NCBI RefSeq assembly: GCF_035593265.1
Contig: NZ_CP141614.1
Coordinates: 1,426,001 to 1,490,000, forward strand
Length of the DNA: 64,000 nt
Source of the DNA: Limnochorda sp. LNt
Lineage (GTDB): Bacteria; Bacillota; Limnochordia; Limnochordales; Geochordaceae
Direction: 5' to 3'
Shown piece by piece: positions 31,670 through 46,417 of this stretch. The position numbers and the translations under genes were made by a program. Positions within the stretch are counted from its first letter, which is position 1. Each line of letters starts with the position of its first letter. The notes under the pieces are model-generated. The model worked only from the letters and a program-made list of their open reading frames with translations. It searched no databases and had not been told where the DNA came from.

Positions 31670-32440
31670 CCGGTCCACGTAGATGATGGCCGCCATGGTG
31701 GTGAAGAGCCGGAGCCGGGGCCCGGGCGGTCCCGGCCGTCTCCGGGGCGTCGAGCCGCCGCCGCTGCAGGGCGGGCAGGGAGGCGTAGGTGCGCGCGGCC
31801 GCCAGGGCGGCCAGCTCCAGGCATCGCCCAGCCGGGCGCGCGCGCGGCCGAAGCCGCGGAGCCCGGGTGGCGACCCCAGCGGACGGGCAGGGCCTCGCGG
31901 GCGCGCGAGCCGCGCGGCGGGCCGTGCCGGGCCACCGGCCAGTAGACGGGCCGTTGCCGGCGGGGCGGCGGGTGAGGGCTCCAGCGGCGCCCAGGCGACG
32001 ATGGGAGCCGATGGGGGCAGGGAGCCGGGTGTGCCGGGGTCGTCGGCGACGGCCTCCAGCCACGTCCAAAGCGCCGGCCGGTGGCGCTCGGCGGGCTGGT
32101 GCAGCATGCCCAGCCACCCCAGATCCAGAGCCAGCGCCCGCAACTCCCACCAGCGGCGCGAGCAGGCGTCGACCGGCTCGAAGGGGGCGGGGGGCCCGTC
32201 CGGCTGCCCGGCCGCGGGGGTGGCCCCGCCCTCCTCCTCGAAGGTGAGCCAGAGCTCGGGGCAGGGGCGCCCGGGCCGGCCCCAGTGCCAGGCCAGCGAG
32301 TCGGGGAGCACGACGCGGTAGCCCATCCGGCCGCTGGCATCGACGGACTGCACCTGGGCGCCCGCCGAGCGCAGGAGATCCAGGCCGAGCCGGGCGAGCC
32401 GGCCCTGCGGCGTCCCGTTGGCCACGGCCCGCTCAGTCAC
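31670..32440 (-). CDS. Hypothetical protein downstream of the second SNF2 helicase, probably frameshifted
   Basis: Starts at ATG 32440, overlapping the helicase end by 8 bases. The N-terminal about 140 residues look like real protein (YRVVLPDSLAWHWGRPGRP, ELWLTFEEEG, WWELRALALDLGWLGMLHQP). From about 31950 leftwards the plausible sequence (LELAALAAARTYASLPALQ) is in another frame, and the end is unclear; the 31670 limit is a guess from the size of YqhG-type partners (about 260 aa). The N-terminal region loosely resembles YqhG. Function unknown; likely partner of the helicase. Confidence 0.4.
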
Positions 32441-34271
32441 GGGCGTCGCCCCCCTCCAGGTCCACGAGCAGCCGCTGCCACTCCTCCGCCAGCTCCTGCA
32501 GCGCCTGGCGAATCCGATGGCCGGCGTCGGGCTCCCGCTCCGGGCGAGCCAAGAGGCGCGCCAGCCGCCGCTCGAGCCGGCCCAGCTCGCGGGGCTGGCC
32601 CACCACCGCGTCCAGCGGCCCCACGAAGCGCCGGAAGAGATCCAGCTTGCGGTGGAGCAGGTAGACCACGTACTCCTCGATGGTGCCGGCGGCCACCAGG
32701 TTCCAGACGTGTACGTCCCGGCGCTGGCCCAGGCGGTGCAGGCGGCCGATGCGCTGCTCGATGCGCATGGGGTTCCAGGGGAGGTCGACGTCGATCAGGT
32801 GCCGGCAAAACTGCAGGTTGACCCCCTCGGCGCCGGCATCGGTGGAGACCATGATGGGAGCCTGGCTCTCGAAGACGGCCCGGGCCCAGTCCCGCTGCAT
32901 GGCGGACAGCCCCCCGTGGAAGAGCACCACCGGCCGCCCCAGCTCGGCCAGGCGCTCGGCCAGGGCCCGCTGGGTGGCCACGTACTCGGTGAAGACCAGC
33001 ACGTGCTCGTCGCCCAGGCGCCGCACCAGGCGCACGGCGGCGTCGGCCTTGGCCCAGCTCTGGACCCCTCGGCCTCGGCCACCAGCGGCCCGGGATCCAG
33101 GGTCCCTCGGCGCACCATGCGCTGCAGGCTGGCCGCCAGGGCCTGGGGACTGGAGCAGAGCTCCCGCTTGAGGGTGAGGAAGACCAGGCTCTGCCCGCCG
33201 CCGCGCCCGCCAGGCCGGCCGGAGTCGAGGATGTAGCTGTCGAGGGCGGCGTAGAGCCGTCGCTCCGCCTCGCCCGGGCGCACCATGATGGTGTGGACGT
33301 GGCGCCGGGTGAAGGGGATGGGGGTGTCCGTGCGCCGGTGGCGCACCATGACCCGCCGCACGCCCTCCCGCAGCCGGTGGGCGGCCCCCAGGTCGACGGG
33401 CGCGTCGAGGCGGCTCGGCATCTCGGGGGCCTGCCCCGGCCGGACCAGATCGATGAGGGCCCGCAGCTCGCCCAGGTGGTTGTGGACGGGGGTCGCGGTC
33501 ACCAGCAGCAGGTAGCGGCTGCGGATGGCCGCCGCCAGCTCGTAGGCGCGGGTGCGGGCGTTCTTGAGGCGGTGGGCCTCGTCGACGATGACGAGGTCAT
33601 AGGGGCGCGCCAGCACCTGCTCCCGGTGGGGCGGCCGCTTGGCGGTGTCGATGGAGGCCACCAGCAGGGGCACCCTTTGCCAGTCGCGCTCGCTGCCCTG
33701 CAACTCGACGGGCAGCTCGAACTTGTCCCGCAGCTCCCGATACCACTGCCAGCACAGCCCCGACGGCACCAGCACCAGCGCTCGCAGCACAAGCCCCCGC
33801 AGCATCAGCTCGTGCAGCACGATCCCCGCCTCGACGGTCTTGCCGAGCCCCACCTCGTCAGCCAGGATGGCCCGGCCCCCGAGCTCGAAGAGCACCCGGC
33901 GGGCCGTGGCCAGCTGGTGCTCGAAGGGGATGACGCCGGCCTGCTGCCAGCGCCAGCGCAGGAATCGAGGCGTCCAGAGCTCCTGCGGGCCGGGCCGCTC
34001 GGCCAGCTCCAGGGCATGCAGGGCGGCCTCGAAGCGCGCCGCGGCCTCGTGGCGGCGGCGGGCGCCCAACAGGGCCCGCACCCAACGCGGGCGCTCGGGG
34101 CCCAGCAGCTCCACCGTCAGCGAGCCGCCCCCGGCAGCGGGAGCGCTCGCTCGAGCCGCGACCCCGGCGGGCCAGCAGCCGCCGCAAGGCGGAGTCGGAC
34201 CGGCCCGGCCCCCGCAGCAGCGCCGGGTCGATGCGGGGAAAGGCGAAGGCCAGGCTCTGCTCCTCGGGCAT
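32433..34271 (-). CDS. SNF2-family helicase, second copy, frameshifts
   Basis: Paralogue of the 26.3 kb helicase on the opposite strand. ATG 34271 gives MPEEQSLAFAFPRIDPALL; the frame changes near 34150 and again near 33065, both in G/C runs. Motif I is ILADEVGLGKTVEAG near 33830-33875, motif II LVIVDEAHRLKN near 33570-33605, motif III LLVTATPVHNHLGELRAL; lobe 2 has LVFTEYVATQRALAERL, MVSTDAGAEGVNLQ and NPMRIEQRIGRLHRLGQ. Restored length is about 610 aa. It is divergent from the tRNA-Ala gene and overlaps the hypothetical gene downstream. Confidence 0.85.
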
Positions 34272-34301
34272 GGCACCGGTAGTTTTCCCGGCCCGGGGCC
34301 T

Positions 34302-34343: not shown

Positions 34344-34418
34344 GGGCCTGTAGCTCAGCGGGAGAGCGCTGGAATCGCACTCCAGAGGTCGGGGGTTCAA
34401 GTCCCCTCAGGTCCACCA
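34344..34418 (+). tRNA. tRNA-Ala(CGC)
   Basis: Cloverleaf built by hand: acceptor GGGCCTG (34344-34350) pairs with CAGGTCC (34408-34414) with the alanine identity pair G3-U70; D-arm GCTC/GAGC; anticodon stem CTGGA/TCCAG around loop ATCGCAC, anticodon CGC (GCG codons); T-loop TTCAAGT; encoded CCA at 34416-34418. The accessory region begins just after it. Confidence 0.95.
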
Positions 34419-34507
34419 TCCACGACGTCCGCCACGACGGCAATCGTGAGCGGGCTTCTTGGTCGGGAGCCCACAGCCTGCCCCCGCTACCACAGCCGAG
34501 CGGCAGC

Positions 34508-34682
34508 CTAACGGGAGACTTGGGCCGCGAACCGCGCCATGGCGGCCGCCGCCTCCTCGTCGGGTCAGACAAGAAGCGGCCGTAGAGGTCCAGGGTGATC
34601 TACGTTCTCGTGGCCCAGGCGGAGGGACACCGCGGGTGCTGAACCCGCCAACGCCCGCAAAGACGTGGGCTTCGCCTCGTCA
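34508..34682 (-). pseudogene. Decayed C-terminus of a tyrosine integrase
   Basis: Read leftwards, three short segments in different frames reconstruct an integrase end: SLRLGHENV (34602-34628), ITLDLYGRFLSDP (34564-34602), and PDEEAAAAMARFAAQVSR with stop TAG at 34510-34508. LGH followed by ITLDLY is the His-to-Tyr catalytic spacing of tyrosine recombinases. It ends 90 bases from the tRNA-Ala 3' end, where integrases of tRNA-targeting elements sit. At least two frame breaks and no N-terminal part are visible, so it is a remnant. In the rest of the gap (34419-34507 and 34683-34854) I see nothing. Confidence 0.6.
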
Positions 34683-34854
34683 ACCCTCGTCGGTATCCCA
34701 CGTCTGGCGAATATCCGTTCGTCGAAAACGGGCCTGGACCGCTGGATTCGCTGGGGCTCGTGCAGGAGGCCCCATGCAGGCTGCGGGAACGCGGTGTCAA
34801 AGCGCGACGAACTGGCCGACGGTAAGGTATCATCGTGACCACGGGAGGCGTGAT

Positions 34855-35121
34855 GTGGTGGAGCGCGTGGGAATCCGCCAGTTTCGGGACCAGCTGACCG
34901 CCTATCTGCGCCGGGTGCGGGCGGGCGAGTCGCTGCTGATTGTGGACCGCGACACACCGATCGCGCACCTCACTCCTGCGATGCCGGAGCTGCGAGCCGT
35001 GTCCAACCTGGTGGTGGAGGGCCTAGCGGAGTGGGGAGGCGGCAAGCCTCGCGGCGCAGCCCAGCCGCCGAAGGTGCACGGGGAGCCCATCTCCGACCTG
35101 CTGGTTGAGGTACGGCGATGA
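34855..35121 (+). CDS. Phd/YefM-family antitoxin
   Basis: 88-aa antitoxin expected to bind its toxin and repress its own promoter. GTG 34855 has GGGAGG 6 bases upstream; the frame is open earlier without family character. The N-terminus VGIRQFRDQLTAYLRRVRAG, then LLIVDRDTPIAHLTP, is the classic Phd/YefM fold. The C-terminal tail is the toxin-binding part. ATGA-type overlap with the following gene shows the usual antitoxin-toxin order. Confidence 0.88.
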   Translation: MVERVGIRQFRDQLTAYLRRVRAGESLLIVDRDTPIAHLTPAMPELRAVSNLVVEGLAEWGGGKPRGAAQPPKVHGEPISDLLVEVRR

Positions 35122-35447
35122 TCCTCTACCTGGACACCAGTACCCTGGTCGAGCTCTACGTCGATAAGGAAGGGTCGCCCCAAGCTCGGGCAGCCGTAGA
35201 GGCGGCGGACGTGGTGGCCAGATCGCGGCTGGCGTTCGCCGAGGCCCATGCCCCGTTCACCGCGGCGGCAAGGCCGGTGGCTGAGGCACTGGCGTATCTT
35301 GCTAGCATCAAGCTCCCGCCGCACCAATTGCAGAAGCTCGGGCTGCCGGACGACTGGAACAAGAACGTCTCCTGCGATTTCGTGCGACGGGTGTGTGAGC
35401 TCATTGAGCGCTATCGACCCCTGCTGGAGGAACTAGCCAAGTATTAG
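35118..35447 (+). CDS. VapC-type PIN-domain protein, shortened or chimeric
   Basis: 109 aa from ATG 35118, overlapping the antitoxin stop. The start MILYLDTSTLVELYVDKEGS and the following RSRLAFAEAHAPFTAA carry the first PIN Asp and the conserved Glu. After about residue 55 the usual PIN continuation, including the DALHLA motif with its acidic residues, is absent; instead there is an unrelated-looking helical tail (LPPHQLQKLGLPDDW...). Family members are about 130-140 aa. It is probably an inactive or recombined toxin. The next 160 bases (35448-35609) hold nothing I recognise. Confidence 0.6.
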   Translation: MILYLDTSTLVELYVDKEGSPQARAAVEAADVVARSRLAFAEAHAPFTAAARPVAEALAYLASIKLPPHQLQKLGLPDDWNKNVSCDFVRRVCELIERYRPLLEELAKY

Positions 35448-35609
35448 AGGGCGTGGCGGCACACCGCACGATACATGACAAGGCTGCAGCCCTTCTCAGC
35501 GCACGCGAGAGTACCGACAGCCTCGCCCCTAAACCCTGCGGGGATGGTTGAGTCAGCTGCTGGGCGCGAGGAGACCATAGCGTATCGGCTCGGTCAATCC
35601 ACCATTGCT

Positions 35610-36416
35610 TCACGGATAGCGGGCGACCAAACGGCCCGACGCGTCCCGTAGTTCGGCCGGGTCGCCCTGGTTGTTCCAGACGTTGGCGCTCGTCCAGATG
35701 AGTACGCCGGGCCCTGGCGACGCGGAGGGCCCCGAGCGGACGACCAGCCGGGCGCCTGGCTCCAGTACTGTCCCCGCCGGGAACGTGAACCGCTGGTTGC
35801 CCGCCACGCTGACGAGCACCCACCCCGAGAGGTCCACCGGCCCATCTCCGTCGTTGACCAGCACCACCTCCTCGCCGGCGAGGTCCACGCTCACGATGAG
35901 ACCACCGCCGCCGGCAATTGCCGGCGCCACCTCTCCCCACAGGCCGCGGCCAGCTTCGCGAGCTTCCCGTTGCAGGCGGACGAACAGGTCGACGTAGCGC
36001 ACGTTGGGCGGGATGGTCAGGAGATGAGCCAACCCCGCCCGCAGAAGCTCGGCGTTGAGCATCCGGCCGTCAGGCAGGTAGACGTACGCCAGCAGCCGGC
36101 CATACCGGTCGCGCTGCTGGACGTCAAGCTCCAGCGTCACGCGCGTGCCGGCCGGGAGCAAGTGCTTGGTGAAGGCGCTGGCCTCGGGCCCGCCGGGTTG
36201 GGCGCCAATCGTGGGGTGGACGGTCTCCGGCGTATCGACGCCGATGAGCCGTACCGTCTCCTGGCGGCCCTCGACCTGCACGACCAGGGTATCGCCGTCG
36301 ACGACCCGCACCACGGTGGCGGGCAGGCTGGCGGAGCCGGCGTGGGCTGGCAGAAAGGCGGCGACCAGGATGACGAGCAGGACGGTCAGGCACGTAGCGA
36401 CGCGTCGGAGCAACAT
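35610..36416 (-). CDS. Secreted thermonuclease with C-terminal lamin-tail domain
   Basis: Staphylococcal-nuclease-like enzyme, expected to be calcium-dependent and to cut DNA/RNA outside the cell. ATG 36416 (268 aa) is preferred over GTG 36425. A signal peptide (about residues 1-29, ending AHAGSA) is followed by the TNase domain: VRVVDGDTLVVQV, RLIGVDTPET, and RDRYGRLLAYVYLPDG, which supply the Asp, Arg and Glu catalytic set. Residues about 170-268 form a lamin-tail (LTD) domain (VVLVNDGDGPVDLSGWVLVS, FPAGTVLEPGARLVV). It is divergent from the putative defence operon; it may be a passenger of the island. Confidence 0.88.
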   Translation of the reverse strand: MLLRRVATCLTVLLVILVAAFLPAHAGSASLPATVVRVVDGDTLVVQVEGRQETVRLIGVDTPETVHPTIGAQPGGPEASAFTKHLLPAGTRVTLELDVQQRDRYGRLLAYVYLPDGRMLNAELLRAGLAHLLTIPPNVRYVDLFVRLQREAREAGRGLWGEVAPAIAGGGGLIVSVDLAGEEVVLVNDGDGPVDLSGWVLVSVAGNQRFTFPAGTVLEPGARLVVRSGPSASPGPGVLIWTSANVWNNQGDPAELRDASGRLVARYP

Positions 36417-36435
36417 GGCCCCCACTCCAACGGTC

Positions 36436-36465
36436 GATATAGTGCGGCCAGGGTATTCGAGGCAA
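36436..36465 (-). promoter_or_regulatory. Putative promoter of the thermonuclease gene
   Basis: On the - strand TTGCCT (36465-36460), an 18-base spacer, and TATATC (36441-36436), 20 bases before the gene start. A moderate sigma-A match. Confidence 0.45.
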
Positions 36466-36468
36466 GCC

Positions 36469-36484
36469 TACCAGGATCCTGGTA
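36469..36484. promoter_or_regulatory. 16-bp perfect palindrome, candidate operator
   Basis: TACCAGGATCCTGGTA reads the same on both strands. It lies in the 248-base divergent region between the thermonuclease and the DUF499 gene, 4 bases upstream of the putative thermonuclease -35 element. The rest of this gap shows no gene or structure I can support. Confidence 0.5.
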
Positions 36485-36664
36485 ACAGGAACGGCCATCC
36501 TCTGCCCGTTGTCCGGCGACGTCGCGGTACTTGCGACGCCAGTCGACGAGATCCAGGTTGCCGACGCTCGCCGTTTGGGGTGCTCGCTGCCCTTCGGGCA
36601 GGATTGGCCAGACCTTTGTCGGATTAGGACGTGTGCGCTCTGGCAAGGGATGGGGGGCACGGGC

Positions 36665-39600
36665 GTGCGTACCATCTTCGACACCTGCCAGCCGCGTCAG
36701 GACGTCCTGACGGGGCAGCTCACCGAGGACAAGTTCGCGGCGGACCTGCACGGCGTGGCCCTGAAAGAGCGGGGCATCGATCCCATCTACCGGGACGCAC
36801 GCGTCTTCTTCACTTACACGTACCCTACGCGCGGCCTTCGGGATCTCGTGCGCCATGTCTTCGGGCGATTCGTAGGGGTCCCCGGCGCGAGCCCGGTGGT
36901 ACGGCTGGAGACTTCCGTGGGCGGGGGAAAGACCCACAACCTCATCGCGCTGTGGCATCTGGCCAGCTCGCCCGGCGTTGCCATGGAGGCGGCGCGAGAT
37001 TGGCTGCCGGCGCGCTCGTTGCCGGATCACCCGCTGCGCCCCGTGGCGCTGGTGGGCGACCGGTACGGCGGCAGCGAGGCCGCGCTGCACGACGGAGTCG
37101 TCACGCGTACCCTTTGGGGGGAGATGGCCTGGCAGCTGGACCGATACGAGGTCATGCGGGAGGTCGACGAGACCCGCCAGGTTCCCTCCGAGAGCCGGCT
37201 CAAAGAGGTCCTGGCGGGTCGCAAGGTGGTCGTCTTACTGGACGAGCTGGCCCGCTACCTCCGGACGGCCAAGGGACAGAAAGTCGGGTCCTCCAACCTC
37301 GCCAACCAGACGCTGACCTTCTTCCACATGCTGCTAGCCTACGCAGTCAGCCACGATGACCTGGTAGTGGTCTACACCCTGACCGGCGCCGACGATGCCT
37401 ACGCGGTGGAGCGCGACGAGATCGTGGAGCAAGAGCAAGAGGTGCTCGCCATCTCTGCCAAGTTCGCCCGGGTGATGACCCCCGTGGCCGAGGACGAGCT
37501 CGCGTCCGTGCTGCGCCGCCGTCTGTTCGAGCGGATCGACATGGGTGCGGCCGAGGAGATCGCGCAATCTTACGTGCAACACCTGCGCCTCATCCGGCGA
37601 CAGGGAGCTCCGATGCCCGCCGAGGTGGACGAGCCGACGTTCGCGGACCGGTTCCGGGAGGCGTATCCCTTTCACCCGGAGCTCCTGACAACCCTGTTTC
37701 GCAAGACCGCGAGTTATCCCACCTTCCATCGCACGCGAGGCGCTCTGCGGCTCCTGGCGGCCGTCGTGCGTCAGCTCTGGCGAGAGCGGCCCGCCGATGC
37801 CTACCTGATTCAGAGCACCGACATCGACCTGAGCCACCCGGTCGTTCGCGAGGAGCTGACCAGCCGCCTCGACCGGGCGCATCTGACTACGGCCATCGCT
37901 GAGGACATTTGGAGCGAGCATGGTGACGCGCACGCTCAGGAGCTGGACCGTGAGTGGGCATCCAGGGGCATGCGCCAGCTGTCGCAGCGTGTCGCCCAGG
38001 TCGTCTTCCTGCACAGCCTCGTCCACACGTCGCGCCTGGGCGTAGCGGGGGCCGAGCCGGCTGAGGTGCACCTAGCCTGTGCTCGACCGGGACTACCCTT
38101 CGACCTGGTCGACAAGGCGCTGGCCCAGATCGACGAGCTGTTCTGGTACGCCGACTTCGATGGGCGGCGCTACCTGTTTCACGACGAGGCCACCATCAAG
38201 AAGGTGATCGCCCAGGCTACCAGCCGTACCGGGCTCGTCGCGGCCAAGGACGCCATCCGGCTCAAGGTGCGGGAGCAGTACGGGGGGACCATCTTCCGCC
38301 TCGTGCCTTTCCCGCCGGGTCCCGAGGGAGTGGACGACGAGGCTGGTCGGCCCCAACTGGTGGTGCTCGACTTCGACCACGTGACGGTGGAGACGGGCTC
38401 CACCGAGGTGCCGGCCGTGGTGCAGGAGATCTTCGAGCGGGCCGGCGAGGGGCGTGACTTTCGCCACTACCAGAACAACCTCATCCTTCTCGTCTGCGAC
38501 ACGACCAAGAAGGATGCCATGGTCGACGCTGCCCGCCGGTTCAAGGGCATCGAGAGCCTGCTCGAGTCGGAGGAGCTGCGCCAACGGCTGGCAGACGCCG
38601 ACCGGCGCAAGCTGCAGGAAGCCCACGGCAAGGCCGCCCTCGACTTCGTGGTGGCTATCCGCAATGCCTACTCGCACCTGTACTACCGCTCTTTGCACGA
38701 CGGCCTCATGGCACACTACGAGCTCCTGCCCCAGGAGTCCGCGGACGTCAAGCGGCCGGCCCAGGTCGTGCTGCGCAGCGTGCTCGAGGCCCAGAGCAAG
38801 GTGCTCACCCGCGACCTAGCGCCGCAGTGGGTCCTCGATCGGATCTGGCCGGAGGGCAAGGGCCACGAGGCCCAGCTCTCCCTCGCCGACCTCGTGGACC
38901 GGTTCGCACGCCGTCCGCGTGCCTACATGCTGCTGGACGAGGGCTTGCAGCGCCTTCGGGTGACCATCCAGCAGGGTGTGAAGCAGGAGCTCTGGGTCTA
39001 CCGCGACGAAAGCACCGAGCGCACCTACCGCAAGGACCGGCCGCCTTCGACCGAGCAGGTGAGGTTCGGCCAGGATGCGCTGCTGCTGACGCCGGCCCTG
39101 GCTGACCGCCTCTATCCGCAAGAGCGACCCCAGCCTGTCGCCGTCGTGCCCGCGGGCGACGGTCAGCCTCAGGCGTCGGATGGTGCTGCGGGGACCAGGC
39201 CCCCGGTTCGGCCCGCCCCTCCGGTCGTCGAGGTCGAATGGGTCGAAGCCGAGGGCCCTGCTCCCCAGGCTTTCACGGCAGTGGCGGATCGACTTCGCGA
39301 GCGAGGTCGCGTAGCCTTGTCGGAGCTCCGCCTCGACGTGGTGGGAGCCCCGGGCGTCCGCCGCCTGGCGGACGGCTGGAGCGCCGTCGACAATGCACTG
39401 GCAGGAGCGGACGTGATGGTCATGCATGAGCTCGAGGCGTCCGACAGCCAGGGTCAGCGCATCTCTCTCCGCTTCGAGGGGCCAGGGCGGCTCTTCGCCC
39501 GCCTGCATGGGTGGCTGCGAGCCACGCTGGACGGGCTGTCGTCGGACCCCCACGTTCTGACTCGGATTCACGCACGATTCCCGGGGCCCGTGGCGCTCTC

Positions 39601-39679
39601 CGACCCGCGTCTGGCGCGCTTGGCACGGGACCTTGAGGAGACTTACCGGTGCGGGCCGGTTGGAGTGCGGGGCCGATGA
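36665..39679 (+). CDS. DUF499-family P-loop ATPase (predicted anti-phage system)
   Basis: First gene of the four-gene putative defence operon. GTG 36665 (1004 aa) has GGGGGG about 9 bases upstream and gives the DUF499 beginning TIFDTCQPRQDVLTGQL; the frame is open from 36509 but lacks family likeness there. P-loop ETSVGGGKTHNLIALWHLA near 36912-36965 (GGGKTH variant), Walker B VVLLDELARYL near 37228-37263, arginine-rich ATPase body, and a separate C-terminal domain after a Pro-rich linker near 39150-39235. Family members occur with DUF1156 methylases and PLD-helicases in anti-phage islands; the biochemical role is unknown. ATGA overlap with the next gene. Confidence 0.85.
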   Translation: MRTIFDTCQPRQDVLTGQLTEDKFAADLHGVALKERGIDPIYRDARVFFTYTYPTRGLRDLVRHVFGRFVGVPGASPVVRLETSVGGGKTHNLIALWHLASSPGVAMEAARDWLPARSLPDHPLRPVALVGDRYGGSEAALHDGVVTRTLWGEMAWQLDRYEVMREVDETRQVPSESRLKEVLAGRKVVVLLDELARYLRTAKGQKVGSSNLANQTLTFFHMLLAYAVSHDDLVVVYTLTGADDAYAVERDEIVEQEQEVLAISAKFARVMTPVAEDELASVLRRRLFERIDMGAAEEIAQSYVQHLRLIRRQGAPMPAEVDEPTFADRFREAYPFHPELLTTLFRKTASYPTFHRTRGALRLLAAVVRQLWRERPADAYLIQSTDIDLSHPVVREELTSRLDRAHLTTAIAEDIWSEHGDAHAQELDREWASRGMRQLSQRVAQVVFLHSLVHTSRLGVAGAEPAEVHLACARPGLPFDLVDKALAQIDELFWYADFDGRRYLFHDEATIKKVIAQATSRTGLVAAKDAIRLKVREQYGGTIFRLVPFPPGPEGVDDEAGRPQLVVLDFDHVTVETGSTEVPAVVQEIFERAGEGRDFRHYQNNLILLVCDTTKKDAMVDAARRFKGIESLLESEELRQRLADADRRKLQEAHGKAALDFVVAIRNAYSHLYYRSLHDGLMAHYELLPQESADVKRPAQVVLRSVLEAQSKVLTRDLAPQWVLDRIWPEGKGHEAQLSLADLVDRFARRPRAYMLLDEGLQRLRVTIQQGVKQELWVYRDESTERTYRKDRPPSTEQVRFGQDALLLTPALADRLYPQERPQPVAVVPAGDGQPQASDGAAGTRPPVRPAPPVVEVEWVEAEGPAPQAFTAVADRLRERGRVALSELRLDVVGAPGVRRLADGWSAVDNALAGADVMVMHELEASDSQGQRISLRFEGPGRLFARLHGWLRATLDGLSSDPHVLTRIHARFPGPVALSDPRLARLARDLEETYRCGPVGVRGR

Positions 39680-40155
39680 AGCGCCAAGCTAGCCCCCCCG
39701 TTGCAGGGAGCAACCGCCGATTCGCCTTGCGGATGGAACAGATCCGGAACACCGAGCCTCGTCTGGTCGTTCTCGAGGAACGCTCCGGCCTGCGCAAGGC
39801 GGCTGGCCCAACGCCGGAGTTGCGATGCGTGGCCTGGGCGTCGGGACTTCCGCTCGAGGTCGCTCGACCGCTGGTGGTCGAGGCCCTTCGAACCATCCAC
39901 CTCAGCCCGGAGCATCTCGCCTGCTCGGGGGTCGACGGAGCCCCTCCGTTGCTCGTGGACGAGGCGACAGGCGCCCGCATCGCGTTGGCCCTACTGGCGG
40001 TACAGCCCCTTCGCAAGCTGGAGCGCATGCAAGAAGTGATCGGTGGCGTCGCCTCGATGAGCCCTGAAGAGTCGCTCTACTGGTTCGCCCGGGTGATGCA
40101 AGGGCCCAAGACGCGTACGCTCCGGGCTCTCCGGATCTTGCTGGCGAGGGAGTGA
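39676..40155 (+). CDS. Small unknown protein of the predicted defence operon
   Basis: 159 aa from ATG 39676, which overlaps the DUF499 stop (ATGA); its own stop overlaps the methylase GTG (GTGA), so it is translationally coupled on both sides and surely a real gene. There is no catalytic motif I recognise. Middle region: RLVVLEERSGLRKAAGPTP and VARPLVVEALRTIHLSPEHL; the C-terminus is a basic helix ending YWFARVMQGPKTRTLRALRILLARE. Small conserved partners (for example DUF3780 proteins) are reported in related operons, but I cannot assign this one. A DNA-binding or adaptor role is a guess. Confidence 0.75.
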   Translation: MKRQASPPVAGSNRRFALRMEQIRNTEPRLVVLEERSGLRKAAGPTPELRCVAWASGLPLEVARPLVVEALRTIHLSPEHLACSGVDGAPPLLVDEATGARIALALLAVQPLRKLERMQEVIGGVASMSPEESLYWFARVMQGPKTRTLRALRILLARE

Positions 40156-43031
40156 GCCTGCCCGTGAAGGAGCGTCCGCGGGTCCTTATCGAGTCACATC
40201 TGCCGGCTGAGACCATCGGAGCAGAGAGCCTGAGGGAGCGCAGCGCCAGCAGTGCGCTTCCACCGCCCTACTACCTTCACGTATGGTGGGCGCGCCGACC
40301 TCTCGTGCTTTCCCGAGCCGCTGTGCTGGGAAGCCTGCTACCTCCGGAGTGTGACCGTGAGTGGTTCTTGCAGACAATGGGCATCTTCGGGGATCCGGTG
40401 GAAACAAGAGCGGAGCTGCTCGAAGCGAAGCGCACGGGCAAAGACCTGGGGGATGACCCCTACGGGTATGACCGGGCGTTCACTTTCACTCCTCCGCCAT
40501 CTCGGCGCCAGGAGATTGGTGCCAAGCTCCGCGAGTTGTGGGGTACCGCCCGGCCCATAGTGCTTGACCTATTCGCCGGCGGAGGCAGTATTCCCCTTGA
40601 AGCGTTGCGGTTGGGCTTGGAAGTTCATGCGAGCGAGCTCAATCCGCTAGCAGCTGTCATCTTGAAGGCAACGTTGGAGTACCCTGCCCGCTTCGGTGAG
40701 TCCATGGCGAAGGAGATTGAATACTGGGGTGGGGAGTGGGCAGGACGTGTAAGGGCAGAGCTTGAGCAGTACTTCCCGACGCGCCCACGAGAGACCGTCC
40801 TAGCGTACGCCTGGGCCCGGACCGTGCGCTGTCCCGAATGCGGTTTGATTGTTCCACTTTCACCAAACTGGTGGCTTGACAAGACTAAGTGCTCCCCGAT
40901 AGCAGCGCGTTTGGTCGTGCCAAGCGACCGTAACGAACGCGCGTGTGGGTTTGAAGTGCCGGTGAAGATCGAACGAGGTAGCTCTTATGATCCTTCCGCT
41001 GGCACGTGGCGTGGTGGGGACGCTCAGTGTCCGAGGTGCCGGCTCACCATCGATGGCGAGTACATCAAGACCGAGGCGCAAGCGGGGCGCATGGGTAGCC
41101 AGATGTATGCCGTTGTGGTCAGCTACGGTCGGGGACGGCAGTACCGTAGCGTCACCGAGGCCGACATCGAGGCAGCGAGGCGCGCCCAAGAGGTCTATGA
41201 CCAGAATGTTGACTCGTGGTTAGTCGAAGGGTTCTTGCCAGGGCAAGAGTATCCGACGAGCACATCCGACCCTCGGCCGTGGCAGTATGGGATGACCCAC
41301 TGGTACAAGATGTTCTCGCCTCGCCAAGCGTTGGTTCTGGCAACTTGCGTCAAACACCTGAGGCAGTTGAAATACGAGATCAGAAGCCGAGTTGGGCGGG
41401 ACCGTGCTGATGCCATCATCACATATCTGTCTCTTGTGCTGGATAAGTGCGCTGACTACAACTCTCAGATGACTCGGTGGGAAGCTACCCGGCTCAAGAT
41501 TGCGAACACCTTCGACCGCCACGACTTTGCATTCAAGCCGAGCCACGGCGAGTTCGACGGGGCCCGTCAGCTGTTGCCGTGGGCCATCGAGCAGGTTGTG
41601 GATGCCTACAAGGGGATTGCGAGGCTGTTTCCGTCGGAGTGGAAAATACCAGGCGATTCGGAGACAGACGGTGCTCCGAGGCAGGTCTTCCTGGAAGAGC
41701 GGTCTCCAGTCGCCGATCATATCCGAATCACGCAAGGAAACGCAGCGGACTTGACCTCCGTGCCGGATGGCTCGGTGCACCTCATCTGCACCGACCCACC
41801 CTACTATGACAACGTCATGTACGGCGAGCTGTCGGATTTCTTCTACGTCTGGCAACGGCTGGTGTTGGACGACATCTACCCCGACTGGTTCCGGGACGAG
41901 CTGGTGCCCAAGGCGGAGGAGGCGGTGGCCAACCCAGCTCGCTTCGTCCGGGAGGGGCAGCGCCGGTCTCGGGAGCTGGCCCGGCGAGACTACGAGGCCA
42001 AGATGCAGGCAGCCTTCCGGGAGGCGTACCGGGTGCTCCATCCTCGGGGCGTCTTCACCCTGATGTTCACCCACAAGAGCGTGGAGGCATGGGATGCCCT
42101 GGCGTCGGCCCTCATCGAGGCGGGCTTCGAGATCACAGCCTCCTGGCCCGTCCATACCGAGAGCGACAAGAGCCTCCACCAGGCGAAGAAGAACGCCGTG
42201 AGGAGCACGGTCCTGCTGGTCTGCCGCAAGCGAGAGGAGACGGATGGAGAAGGGGTCTGGTTCGACGACATCCTGGCGGAGCTACGTGAGACCGCTCGGG
42301 CCAAGGCCCTCGAGTTTCACGAGCAGGGGATGCGAGGCGTCGACCTGATGATCGCCGCCTTCGGCCCCGCGCTGCAGGTGGTCTCCCGCCGGTGGCCGGT
42401 GCGAAACAGCGACGGCTCACTGTTGCGCCCGGAGCAGGCCCTCGACGAGGTGCGTCGCGAGGTGACGAGCCTGCGCCTGCGCCAGCTCCTCAAAGGGCGG
42501 GACAGCCGGTTCGATCCCGAGACGCAGTTCGTCGTGCTGGCGTGGGATCAGTACCAGGCGGTGGAGTTTCCGTACGACGAAGCGCGCAAGCTGGCGCTCA
42601 GCGTCGGGGTCGACGTGGAGAGCCTCAAGCGTGACCGGGCGCTCCTGCAGTCGCGCCAGGACGCCGTCCGCCTGCTAACGCCGGCCGAGCGTCGCCGCAT
42701 CCGGGAGCAGGTGCTCGATCCGGCAGCGGAGACCTTCTCGTCAACCATCGATGCCATCCACACGGCGGTCTTCGTGCACCAGCAGGAGGGGCCTCTGGCT
42801 CTAGACCGATTCGTACGGCGCACCGGCGTGCTATCGGATCCTGCCTTCCTCCTGGCGGTCGAGACGCTGCTGCACGTCATCCCGCAGACCAAAGCGACTG
42901 AAGCGCACTTCGACCCTCTGTACGCGATGGCGCAGAGCGCCCTGCAGGCCCATGTGAACCTGCCCCAGCGGCACATGTTCGAGGAGGAAGAGGGCCTCAC
43001 CACGGACGACGAGGAGGCGGGGGTGCTCTGA
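40152..43031 (+). CDS. DUF1156-type DNA adenine/cytosine-N4 methyltransferase
   Basis: Large amino-methyltransferase, predicted to mark host DNA in an anti-phage system. 959 aa from GTG 40152. The DUF1156 beginning (VLIESHLPAETIGAESLRER, then YYLHVWWARRPLVLSR) is followed by SAM motif I VLDLFAGGGSIPLEALRLG near 40559-40616, a zinc-ribbon-like insert with CPEC (near 40830) and CPRC (near 41028), and catalytic motif IV TDPPYYDNVMYGEL near 41791-41830. Order I then IV. The first part (about 40.2-41.75 kb) is visibly less GC-rich than the rest. It ends against the helicase start. Confidence 0.9.
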   Translation: MSLPVKERPRVLIESHLPAETIGAESLRERSASSALPPPYYLHVWWARRPLVLSRAAVLGSLLPPECDREWFLQTMGIFGDPVETRAELLEAKRTGKDLGDDPYGYDRAFTFTPPPSRRQEIGAKLRELWGTARPIVLDLFAGGGSIPLEALRLGLEVHASELNPLAAVILKATLEYPARFGESMAKEIEYWGGEWAGRVRAELEQYFPTRPRETVLAYAWARTVRCPECGLIVPLSPNWWLDKTKCSPIAARLVVPSDRNERACGFEVPVKIERGSSYDPSAGTWRGGDAQCPRCRLTIDGEYIKTEAQAGRMGSQMYAVVVSYGRGRQYRSVTEADIEAARRAQEVYDQNVDSWLVEGFLPGQEYPTSTSDPRPWQYGMTHWYKMFSPRQALVLATCVKHLRQLKYEIRSRVGRDRADAIITYLSLVLDKCADYNSQMTRWEATRLKIANTFDRHDFAFKPSHGEFDGARQLLPWAIEQVVDAYKGIARLFPSEWKIPGDSETDGAPRQVFLEERSPVADHIRITQGNAADLTSVPDGSVHLICTDPPYYDNVMYGELSDFFYVWQRLVLDDIYPDWFRDELVPKAEEAVANPARFVREGQRRSRELARRDYEAKMQAAFREAYRVLHPRGVFTLMFTHKSVEAWDALASALIEAGFEITASWPVHTESDKSLHQAKKNAVRSTVLLVCRKREETDGEGVWFDDILAELRETARAKALEFHEQGMRGVDLMIAAFGPALQVVSRRWPVRNSDGSLLRPEQALDEVRREVTSLRLRQLLKGRDSRFDPETQFVVLAWDQYQAVEFPYDEARKLALSVGVDVESLKRDRALLQSRQDAVRLLTPAERRRIREQVLDPAAETFSSTIDAIHTAVFVHQQEGPLALDRFVRRTGVLSDPAFLLAVETLLHVIPQTKATEAHFDPLYAMAQSALQAHVNLPQRHMFEEEEGLTTDDEEAGVL

Positions 43032-46000
43032 AGACGGCCCAGCCGCTCGTCGAGGACTTCCGGTCCTATCCACACTGGCGGTGGACCCTAGAGCCGGGCA
43101 ACGACCTGGTGCAGGAGTTCCTACTGCCGGCGTTGTTGCGGGCTCGGCGGTACGACCGACAGGCCGGCTTCTTCTCGAGCTCGTCGCTGCTGGTCTCGGC
43201 CAAAGGGGTCGAATACCTGCTGCGCCGCGTGCCGCGCCCGCAGTGGCCGGCGTATCGGCTCGTCGTCTGCGAGCGGCTGGATCCGGCGGACGTAGAGGCC
43301 ATCGAACACGGCGAGCGGATCCGCCAGCTCCAGGAGCAGCTCACCGGCCGCATGCTGCGGGCATTGGATGCGCCCGTCGACGCCGCGGCCCGGGATCGGC
43401 TCGCCCTGCTCGCGGCCATGGTGGCGGTGGGCTTCGCCGAGATACGCGTGGTGGTGCCAGCGGGGCCCGACGGCCGTCCCAGGCCGGGTGCCATCGAGCA
43501 TGCCAAGGTAGCCATCCTGCACGACGCCGGTGGCAACACCTTGGTGGCCTTTGGAAGCGCCAACGAGAGCTGGCAAGGCTGGGTGCACAACAACGAGCAG
43601 ATGGACCTGTACGCCTCATGGGATGAGCCCACGTGGAGCCGATACGGGCGCCCCAAGGTCGAGCGTTTCGAGCGGTTATGGGGGGGGAGGGACCCCCACT
43701 CGCTGACGGTGGAGCTCCCGCGGGCCGTCCGGGAGCGTCTGGTAGCGCTGGCCCCCGAGGAGCTGCCCGAAGAGCTCGTGGAGCCGCTAGACTCGGACAC
43801 CCGTCTCCTCACGCCCCAGCAAGAGAGGGTGGCCCTGCAGTTCGTGCGAGACGCCCCGAGGATGAGCGGCGGCCGATGGGTTGCCTTGACGACGGCGGCC
43901 GTGAGGCCGTGGCCGCATCACGTGGGCGTGCTTCGCACGGCGCTCGAGGCGGACGCGCCCCGGTACTTGCTGTGTGACGAGGTGGGGCTGGGCAAGACCA
44001 TCGAGGCGGCCTTCCTGATACGGGCCTGGCAACTGGCGGGTCTGGCGCAGCGGACTCTGGTGCTGGCACCACGTGCGCTGTGCGAGCAGTGGCAGGAGGA
44101 GTTGATCGGCAAGTTTTCGTTGCCGGCCTGGCTGTACGACGGTGCAACGTTGGTGGGGCCTAGCCTCGGCCATGGCCGGGGCCGCGAGCAGCGTCCCGTC
44201 GAGCGCCAGGAAGTCTTCCGAATCAGCCCCGTCGTCCTCATCGTCGGCACGGAGCTGGCCCGCCGCCAGGAGCGTCAGGGAGACCTGCTGCAGGCGCCGC
44301 CGTGGGACCTGATCATCGTCGACGAGGCCCACCACGCGCGGCGCACCGGGTATGATCAGCCAGATCGTCAGCCCAACCAGCTGCTCAGGCTCCTTCAACG
44401 CCTCAAGGACCGTACCCGTGCCTTGTTGCTCCTGACCGCGACCCCCATGCAGATCCATCCCCGGGAGGTCTGGGACCTCTTGAGATTGCTGGGGGTGGAT
44501 GGGCCGCTGGGCACCTCCTTCGAGCGTTTCGAGAGCTTCTACCGGGCATTGGCGGACATGGAGCAGGACTCCACGCTGCAGCGACCCGTGCTGGACCTCC
44601 TCTTCGAGACCGTGCGAGCTGGGGCGAGGGGAGAGCCCTCGCTGCTGGCGTCGCTCGAGCGGACGGCGCCCATGCTCTACCGCAGGTGCGCCACCGCGGT
44701 CGACACGCCGATCGCCAGGGAGGGCCTGATCCGTCTCGGACCGGCGGAGCGCGCCCATCTGCGCGACTTCTTCCTCGCCCACGCCCCGACCCGCCAGCGC
44801 CTGTTCCGGACGACCCGAAAGAGGCTACGGGAGTACCGGCACCAGGGGCTCATCAGCGACCCGATCCCCGAACGCAGGGTGTCTAGCGAACGCATCCCCC
44901 TCTCGATGGAGGAGCAAGCGGTCTACCTCGACGTAGAGCGGTATCTGGCGCGTCATTACCGCAACGCGATGACAGGAGGCCAGCGCGGGCTCGGGTTTGT
45001 GCTGACGTGCTACCGCCAGCGCCTGGCCAGCAGCCCGTATGCCCTTCGGCGCAGCCTGGAGCGCCTGCGGGAGCGCATCGGGGCCGGCTCTGCTCGTCTC
45101 GACGACCTGGTCGACGACGACGACCTGGCCGGGGTGGGGACGGTGCGCGAGGAGGAGCTATCCGACGGCGGTCCCTTCGCGCTGGGAGACACCGCTCTGG
45201 CCGAGCTCGACGCCCTGCTCGCCCAGGTGCGATCCCTCGGGGTCGACAGCAAACGGGCCCGTCTGCACGAGGTACTGGACCGGCTGGCGGCCGAGTACCA
45301 CCGGGTGATCATCTTTACGCAGTACACCGATACGATGGACTACGTGCGCAACGCGCTGCTCGAGCGCACGCGCCAGGTCGGCTGCTTCTCGGGGCGGGGG
45401 GGCGAGGTCTACGACCCCGAGGCCAACGCTTTCGTTCCCGTCTCCAAGGAGGAGTTGCAGGAGCGATTCCGGCAGGACGGCGGCATCACCCTCCTGGTCT
45501 GCACCAACGCGGCAGCCGAAGGGCTCAACCTCCAGGTATGCGGCGCGATGGTTAACTACGACCTGCCCTGGAACCCGATGCGACTGGAGCAGCGTATCGG
45601 ACGCATCGACCGCATCGGTCAGGACCACAAGGAGGTACGGGTCTACAACTTCTTCTCCACGCCCAGCGTCGAGGATGACGTCTACCACGCGCTCGACGAG
45701 CGGATCGGGCTGTTCGAGCGCTTTGTCGGGCCCCTGCAGCCTCTCATCTCGTCGACGGAGAAGACCATCCGCGACCTCGCCATGCTGTCGCCCGACGAAC
45801 GTCCGGCCGTACAGGAGCGGCGCCTGGAGGACCTCAAGGCAGAGATCGCGGAGCTACAGCGGCGATCCCCGGCGCTGCCCGTGGCCGAAGGCTTCGAGCG
45901 GCCGATTGTCATCGACGCAAAGCCTCTGCGGGAGAGCCCCGTCACGGTGGAGGCCCTGCGCAGGCTCTGGTTGCGAAGTCCCACGCTGCTTCGCAGCGGG

Positions 46001-46318
46001 GCGCTCAGGCCCGTGGGGGATGGCGTCTACGAGCTACGGGACCGGGGCCGGCTGGTGCGTATCACCTTCGACCCAGATGTGGCCCAGCGCCGGCGAGGGG
46101 ATGCGGTGCTGCTGACCTACGGCCACCCTTACCTCGAGCGCTGGTTGGCCGAGGCCTCCCTCGAACCTGCGGCGCTCGAAGCAGCCGGTGTCTGGCGTCG
46201 TGTCGACGAGGCGGGTCACGTCATCTACGGGGTGAGGGAGCGGGTCATCGCCGCCCTGGACGAGCTGCTCGACCATTTCGAGACCGCCTCGGGATACGGG
46301 CGGCCGCCAGAAGGATAG
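43028..46318 (+). CDS. PLD-like nuclease domain fused to SNF2 helicase (predicted anti-phage system)
   Basis: Fourth gene of the putative defence operon. Family-like sequence (LVEDFRSYPHWRWTLEPGND) starts well before the first GTG at 43109; the only usable upstream codon is CTG 43028, overlapping the methylase stop and about 9 bases after GGAGG, giving 1096 aa. The N-terminal PLD-like domain has HAKVAILHDAGGNTLVAFG and SANES near 43498-43570. The helicase has LLCDEVGLGKTIEAA near 43969-44010, IIVDEAHHARR near 44314-44344, LLTATPMQIHPREVWDLL, VIIFTQYTDTMDYVRNAL and NPMRLEQRIGRIDRIGQ near 45575-45625. No frame breaks. Confidence 0.9.
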   Translation: MKTAQPLVEDFRSYPHWRWTLEPGNDLVQEFLLPALLRARRYDRQAGFFSSSSLLVSAKGVEYLLRRVPRPQWPAYRLVVCERLDPADVEAIEHGERIRQLQEQLTGRMLRALDAPVDAAARDRLALLAAMVAVGFAEIRVVVPAGPDGRPRPGAIEHAKVAILHDAGGNTLVAFGSANESWQGWVHNNEQMDLYASWDEPTWSRYGRPKVERFERLWGGRDPHSLTVELPRAVRERLVALAPEELPEELVEPLDSDTRLLTPQQERVALQFVRDAPRMSGGRWVALTTAAVRPWPHHVGVLRTALEADAPRYLLCDEVGLGKTIEAAFLIRAWQLAGLAQRTLVLAPRALCEQWQEELIGKFSLPAWLYDGATLVGPSLGHGRGREQRPVERQEVFRISPVVLIVGTELARRQERQGDLLQAPPWDLIIVDEAHHARRTGYDQPDRQPNQLLRLLQRLKDRTRALLLLTATPMQIHPREVWDLLRLLGVDGPLGTSFERFESFYRALADMEQDSTLQRPVLDLLFETVRAGARGEPSLLASLERTAPMLYRRCATAVDTPIAREGLIRLGPAERAHLRDFFLAHAPTRQRLFRTTRKRLREYRHQGLISDPIPERRVSSERIPLSMEEQAVYLDVERYLARHYRNAMTGGQRGLGFVLTCYRQRLASSPYALRRSLERLRERIGAGSARLDDLVDDDDLAGVGTVREEELSDGGPFALGDTALAELDALLAQVRSLGVDSKRARLHEVLDRLAAEYHRVIIFTQYTDTMDYVRNALLERTRQVGCFSGRGGEVYDPEANAFVPVSKEELQERFRQDGGITLLVCTNAAAEGLNLQVCGAMVNYDLPWNPMRLEQRIGRIDRIGQDHKEVRVYNFFSTPSVEDDVYHALDERIGLFERFVGPLQPLISSTEKTIRDLAMLSPDERPAVQERRLEDLKAEIAELQRRSPALPVAEGFERPIVIDAKPLRESPVTVEALRRLWLRSPTLLRSGALRPVGDGVYELRDRGRLVRITFDPDVAQRRRGDAVLLTYGHPYLERWLAEASLEPAALEAAGVWRRVDEAGHVIYGVRERVIAALDELLDHFETASGYGRPPEG

Positions 46319-46322
46319 CAAG

Positions 46323-46352
46323 ACGCCCGGCGAGTCCTGGCCCGCCGGGCGT
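46323..46352. terminator. GC hairpin between convergent helicase and nuoN
   Basis: ACGCCCGGCG (46323-46332) pairs with CGCCGGGCGT (46343-46352), 10 perfect pairs and a 10-base loop, 4 bases after the helicase stop. No T-run on either side, so it is a presumed two-way terminator rather than a certain one. Confidence 0.55.
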
Positions 46353-46417
46353 CGTCGCGTCTCCGATGTAGCCCTGGGCCGAGCGAATGGCGAGGCTCGC
46401 CCCCGCCACCGCCCCCG

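Follow-up and report, generated by a model that had tools for sequence, protein, structure and literature searches.

Gene content of the operon

The 64,000-nucleotide window considered here (Limnochorda sp. LNt, contig NZ_CP141614.1, positions 1,426,001 to 1,490,000) carries at 36665-46318 four head-to-tail genes on the + strand, encoding in order a DUF499 ATPase, a small DUF7680 protein, a DUF1156 methylase and a helicase (Table 1). Successive genes overlap stop to start, and the ATGA at 39676, GTGA at 40152 and CTGA at 43028 read in the sequence confirm the coordinates, order and coupling proposed in an earlier reading of the same DNA (hereafter the original prediction), in which the second protein had been left unassigned; it is a member of Pfam DUF7680. 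We consider it likely that the four genes form a chromosomally inserted, restriction-modification-like phage-defence operon of the DUF499-centred, BREX (bacteriophage exclusion)-related (BR) kind, and that they represent a separate lineage within it, of which DUF7680 is the marker.

All four reading frames are open and every catalytic motif sought is present. The ATPase has intact Walker A (GGGKT, residue 86) and Walker B (VVLLDE, 189) motifs, the methylase has FAGGG at 141, DPPYY at 548 and CxxC pairs at 227 and 293, and the motor part of the helicase has GLGKT at 320, DEAH at 432 and RIGRIDRIGQ, with the motif VI arginines, at 856. The nuclease motif HxK...D...GSxN lies in region 158-179 of the helicase (HAKVAILHD at 158, GSAN at 176). 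The original prediction took a lack of DUF499, DUF1156 or PLD matches as a point against itself: the first two families were matched and, although the PLDc_2 match is weak, the nuclease motif is there and the helicase scores best to PADLOC PLD_Helicase and NCBIfam phospholipD_antiphage. The profile matches and motifs support the prediction that a DNA methylase is combined with an ATPase and with a helicase that has a PLD-type nuclease motif. A Pfam scan of the helicase, whose C-terminus is without a structure model, gave no match to a PD-(D/E)XK nuclease. No sequence relatives of the ATPase or methylase were found among solved structures, and those of the helicase are RapA and SNF2 remodellers only. 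A methylase search shows the operon to be single-copy in the genome. The four genes had also been called the only ones in the window without a frame break; they are indeed unbroken, but so are nuoL, nuoM and nuoN, which makes the claim too strong.

The ATPase reading frame starts at GTG 36665 with the N-terminus MRTIFDTCQPRQDVL, in agreement with its relatives, which begin MRTIFDACEPRSEVL. The helicase gene very probably begins at CTG 43028, as this is the sole upstream in-frame start-like codon that retains the N-terminal stretch common to relatives; it is preceded by GGAGG, and a start at the first in-frame GTG, 43109, would remove that stretch.

Table 1. Features of the operon and of the surrounding block, in window positions.
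Feature	Position	Strand	Evidence
DUF499 (BrxC-like) AAA+ ATPase, 1004 aa, GTG start	36665..39679	+	Pfam DUF499 2.2e-37; PADLOC HmaC 5e-87
DUF7680 protein, 159 aa, ATG start overlapping ATPase stop (ATGA)	39676..40155	+	Pfam DUF7680 1.5e-26
DUF1156 N6-adenine-type DNA methylase, 959 aa, GTG start (GTGA)	40152..43031	+	DUF1156 5.8e-15; PADLOC HmaB 2.9e-100
HKD/PLD nuclease-SNF2 helicase fusion, 1096 aa, inferred CTG start (CTGA)	43028..46318	+	SNF2-rel 3.3e-17; Helicase_C 4.6e-18; PLDc_2 0.011
tRNA-Ala (CGC), left edge of block	34344..34418	+	ARAGORN
12-kb acquired block, tRNA-Ala to nuoN, carrying the operon (very probably acquired)	34419..46417	.	near-empty site in two relatives; lower GC3
Phd/VapB antitoxin-like gene remnant and short PIN-like open reading frame, block cargo	34858..35447	+	Phd_YefM E 7.6e-4, under Pfam cut-off
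SNase and lamin-tail-domain (LTD) protein, block cargo, divergent from operon	35610..36425	-	SNase 8.5e-24; LTD 4.5e-16

DUF7680 loci among BREX-related systems

As described in the text of a 2026 Nucleic Acids Research survey (PMC12839542), DUF499-centred BR systems are anti-phage and fall into three types. Type-1 corresponds to PADLOC 'Hma', has no small gene and carries a C-terminal PD-(D/E)XK nuclease on its helicase in 79% of taxa; Type-2 has an HKD-helicase and DUF3780, present as a standalone gene in 98% of taxa; and Type-3 has PglZ and iSTAND. Hma itself was described as a three-gene helicase-methylase-ATPase operon, small gene absent (PMC8565338). The window operon, with a DUF499 ATPase, a DUF1156-type N6-methylase and an SNF2 helicase in one locus, belongs with the BR systems but fits none of the three types fully. 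DUF7680 is mentioned neither in the other literature searched nor in the text of the survey, as distinct from its supplementary tables.

Among 398 genomes of the host phylum, DUF7680 occurs in 19, the window's genome included, DUF3780 above cut-off in 18 and DUF499 (E <=0.001) in 66; 17 DUF7680 loci of the phylum were examined besides the window's own. A search of species-representative genomes with the methylase alone, and so blind to the small gene, returned 80 loci, 74 of them with DUF7680. Among the remaining six, the contig ends short of the slot in three and the upstream sequence is only about 1.4 kb in two. The last is a true exception, the archaeal (Sigynarchaeum) locus L156 (5656-15879), where an HKD helicase of the DUF7680 lineage stands in Hma order with no DUF7680; it is possibly an intermediate. 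Altogether DUF7680 accompanies the methylase in 92 loci (three being duplicates or near-duplicates) from more than 12 bacterial and archaeal phyla, always in second place, and the complete loci are without exception ordered ATPase-DUF7680-methylase-helicase (83/83). DUF3780 loci have the identical order, with DUF3780 filling the DUF7680 slot, whereas the Hma-type comparison loci are ordered helicase-methylase-ATPase.

Inserts of more than 300 bp occur at the DUF7680-methylase junction (23/89) and at the methylase-helicase junction (14/82). Two of 85 ATPase-DUF7680 junctions were flagged, both apparently split ATPase reading frames, so none is genuine. Many of the inserted proteins that were scanned are of defence types, including GmrSD, OLD-TOPRIM, Schlafen-AlbA, AbiEii-like AAA and Abi_2, the remainder being helicases, other enzymes or proteins without a match; embedded defence genes are already known from Hma operons, as Hma-embedded candidates. 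By pattern search, most DUF7680 helicases have an N-terminal HKD motif, and none of the Hma-type helicases showed one. Within the DUF7680 systems L137, L151 and the Bacillota loci L021-L033 form long divergent branches; in the Bacillota sub-branch DUF7680 is longer (~200 aa) and the helicases measure ~1300 aa.

The trees, whose supports are Shimodaira-Hasegawa-like approximate likelihood ratios from quick searches, separate the DUF7680 systems to different degrees. With Type-3 BREX as outgroup, the methylases form DUF7680 (97), DUF3780 (100) and Hma-type (95) groups, the branching among the three being unsettled. The ATPase tree, computed under a mixture model without an outgroup and with five DUF3780 loci representing Type-2, again gives three groups (DUF7680 88, DUF3780 100, Hma-type 99). 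In the helicase tree, rooted on BREX, DUF7680 and DUF3780 form a joint clade (100) and the Hma-type (99) falls outside. A grouping of the Bacillota sub-branch with DUF3780, seen in a quick LG tree, was flagged as a long-branch effect and was gone under the mixture model.

The original prediction placed the operon in the Hma type, and in part rightly, since PADLOC assigns the ATPase and methylase best to HmaC and HmaB; but there are four genes rather than three, in another order, and the helicase is best matched by PLD_Helicase. An Hma operon with an added gene and a rearranged order would explain the PADLOC matches, and it finds some further support in the midpoint-rooted ATPase tree, which joins DUF7680 and Hma-type away from DUF3780. 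We nevertheless hold it to be very improbable, given that the order differs in all complete loci, that Type-1 helicases gave no match to the HKD motif and that the helicase tree leaves the Hma-type outside.

A closer alternative is that the operon is a divergent Type-2 system, with DUF7680 being DUF3780 under another Pfam name and a new subtype needless. The AlphaFold2 model of DUF7680 (predicted local distance difference test score, pLDDT, 90) has the element order b-b-b-a-b-a-a-a-a, and that of DUF3780 (pLDDT 85) the same main-element order of three strands, a helix, a fourth strand and four helices. Their profiles align co-linearly but weakly (hhalign E 0.0007-0.009, probability 4-11%), and column permutations of the DUF3780 profile reached the real score in 0/100 cases for the joint profile, 1/100 for the window-like set and 2/100 for the long form. 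Given this common predicted topology and weak profile similarity, the same slot and the helicase ancestry in common, DUF7680 and DUF3780 are probably distant homologues.

The identical order, the joint helicase clade, the like topology and the window helicase's best scores to PLD-type models all speak for a divergent Type-2. However, DUF7680 and DUF3780 systems lie apart in the methylase and ATPase trees, Pfam DUF7680 matches the window's genome where Pfam DUF3780 does not, and the operon scores 241.8/1200, 250.3/1000 and 353.8/1100 bits against the DUF3780-linked NCBIfam equivalog cut-offs (NF042961-NF042964), missing them by factors of 3-5. Moreover, one genome (G132) has both kinds of system, each at its own locus. 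We regard a divergent Type-2 as possible but rather doubtful, and favour a distinct and apparently undescribed BR subtype, nearest to Type-2 by its helicase with N-terminal HKD nuclease, its gene order and its small protein, and separate from it by its methylase and ATPase. That the operon may be a distinct subtype had been suggested from the start, and the trees and gene order now support this well.

Other known systems are more remote. Type-3 BREX (BrxC, BrxXI, BrxHII, PglZ) has a homologous helicase and methylase core, but no PglZ turned up in the operon or in those flanking genes that were tested, and the ATPase profile did not match the protein of ~1230 aa that takes the place of BrxC in the BREX loci compared. 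DISARM (defence island system associated with restriction-modification), taken as DrmA/DrmB (DUF1998) genes plus the DrmD helicase and named as related in logic by the original prediction, offers a loose functional analogy only: the tested genes of the operon and its flanks gave no DrmB-like match, and the DrmD model reached 265/610 bits. The archaeal COG1743-DUF499-SWI2/SNF2-nuclease operons linked to EVE proteins have, in the relevant part of PMC7641849, the same three core kinds, with PLDc as an alternative nuclease; that part describes no small gene, and no EVE protein was seen in the window.

Genomic site and mobility

The nuo operon lies downstream of the four genes and faces them. From tRNA-Ala to the end of nuoN, two same-family genomes have ~0.1 kb against 12.0 kb in the window, and GC content at third codon positions (GC3) is 0.77-0.86 in the operon genes against 0.95-0.98 in the nuo genes. 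The near-closed site in relatives and the lower GC3 indicate that the operon was very probably acquired horizontally; close relatives with the same housekeeping neighbours lack it at this site. No tRNA-end repeat, as expected of tRNA-mediated integration with att duplication, was found at the distal edge of the block, and no integrase was noticed in it. The PIN-like reading frame between tRNA-Ala and the operon is so named by eye only and had no Pfam match. In a same-genus genome the tRNA-Ala/nuoN site is occupied by a 0.8-kb stretch (L210, 3555-4385) which, by eye, reads like an inorganic pyrophosphatase gene. Beside tRNA-Ala in the window, an SNF2/RapA-like helicase gene (32433-34276, - strand) is broken into two frames, likely by a frameshift or sequencing error, since its two parts align with relatives in different frames.

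Relatives of the methylase are present on plasmids, and none was matched in the GenBank phage records searched. Four IMG/VR contigs classed as viral (L186, L187, L188, L189) carry complete four-gene DUF7680 operons. Three others (L192, 6893-8426; L193, 7337-8354; L194, 5119-5924) have an intact DUF7680 reading frame, and their methylase is reduced to 115-140 aa at the N-terminus (the DUF1156 part), with no ATPase or methylase core found within the contig stretch examined; they are truncated modules or possibly phage-borne decoys.

This setting raises the question of whether the operon serves the acquired block as a stability or exclusion module, directed at plasmids or competing mobile elements and not at phages. 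Its insertion next to a tRNA gene, in company with a toxin-antitoxin remnant and a nuclease gene, and its plasmid-borne relatives could suggest so. The embedding of GmrSD, OLD-TOPRIM, Schlafen and Abi genes in related operons points instead to phage defence, as does homology to systems that the text of PMC12839542 describes as anti-phage, and the two roles can coexist; we find an exclusive module of this kind improbable.

Proposed mechanism and significance

Several observations weigh against a phage-defence operon of a separate DUF7680 lineage. The window locus lies among housekeeping genes (nuo operon, tRNA-Ala) with no defence island. The original prediction had named such a setting of the homologues as a possible objection; the picture is mixed, as relatives hold defence genes inside the operon. 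The helicase tree places DUF3780 among the DUF7680 branches without resolution, leaving DUF7680 monophyly unsettled, and in the ATPase tree this monophyly reaches a support of only 88. The low hhalign probability means weak sequence homology between the small proteins, whose topologies were compared by element order alone. The HKD pattern went unmatched in the Bacillota sub-branch, although it also missed most DUF3780 helicases, so that a miss in either group does not amount to absence. Finally, the supplementary tables of PMC12839542 may count DUF7680 loci within Type-1 or Type-2. Gene content, intact motifs, strict order, acquisition, the separate lineage and the probable DUF7680-DUF3780 homology are the results of computation, and we retain on balance the separate phage-defence lineage.

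The mechanism that we propose for it resembles the BR working model in the text of PMC12839542. Judging from its intact motifs and its family, the DUF1156 methylase would mark a sequence-specific site in the DNA of the host. DUF7680 would be the constant partner of the BrxC-like DUF499 ATPase, and the two would then assemble on unmarked or actively processed foreign DNA, as suggested by the never interrupted ATPase-DUF7680 junction and by the position of DUF7680 in the DUF3780 slot; the intact junction is also our main reason for proposing a permanent pair. The pair would license the SNF2 motor, which, from its motifs, could pull DNA to its own N-terminal HKD nuclease for cutting, the nuclease being probably dimeric since there is one HKD motif per chain. 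Anti-phage activity, methylation site, complex formation and DNA cleavage are all predictions from sequence.

A more speculative version, to which we give a low likelihood, is that of a fourth BR type in which DUF7680 stays with the ATPase from its synthesis on, senses the state of the DNA and gates the helicase-nuclease, its N-terminal b-b-b-a half perhaps being a PUR-like single-strand-binding fold. If so, the trigger would be a single-stranded or remodelled DNA intermediate and not the methylation mark alone. A fold search with the DUF7680 model returned nothing at E <0.001 in PDB or BFVD. Three routes gave a weak match to Borrelia Pur-alpha (Foldseek probability 0.3-0.4; VIA Z 4.6; profile E 0.12), which is missing among the matches listed for DUF3780; we treat the resemblance as a lead only. 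Other fold matches, with Z up to 6.3, were partial and helical and were judged to be noise.

DUF7680 marks a widespread BR branch found in archaea and many bacterial phyla, and in the host's phylum its systems equal the named DUF3780 Type-2 in frequency (19 versus 18 of the 398 genomes). It would represent a second, distantly related family for the BR small subunit, and its loci point to an obligate ATPase-small-protein pair while supplying further embedded defence genes, some of them of no known type.

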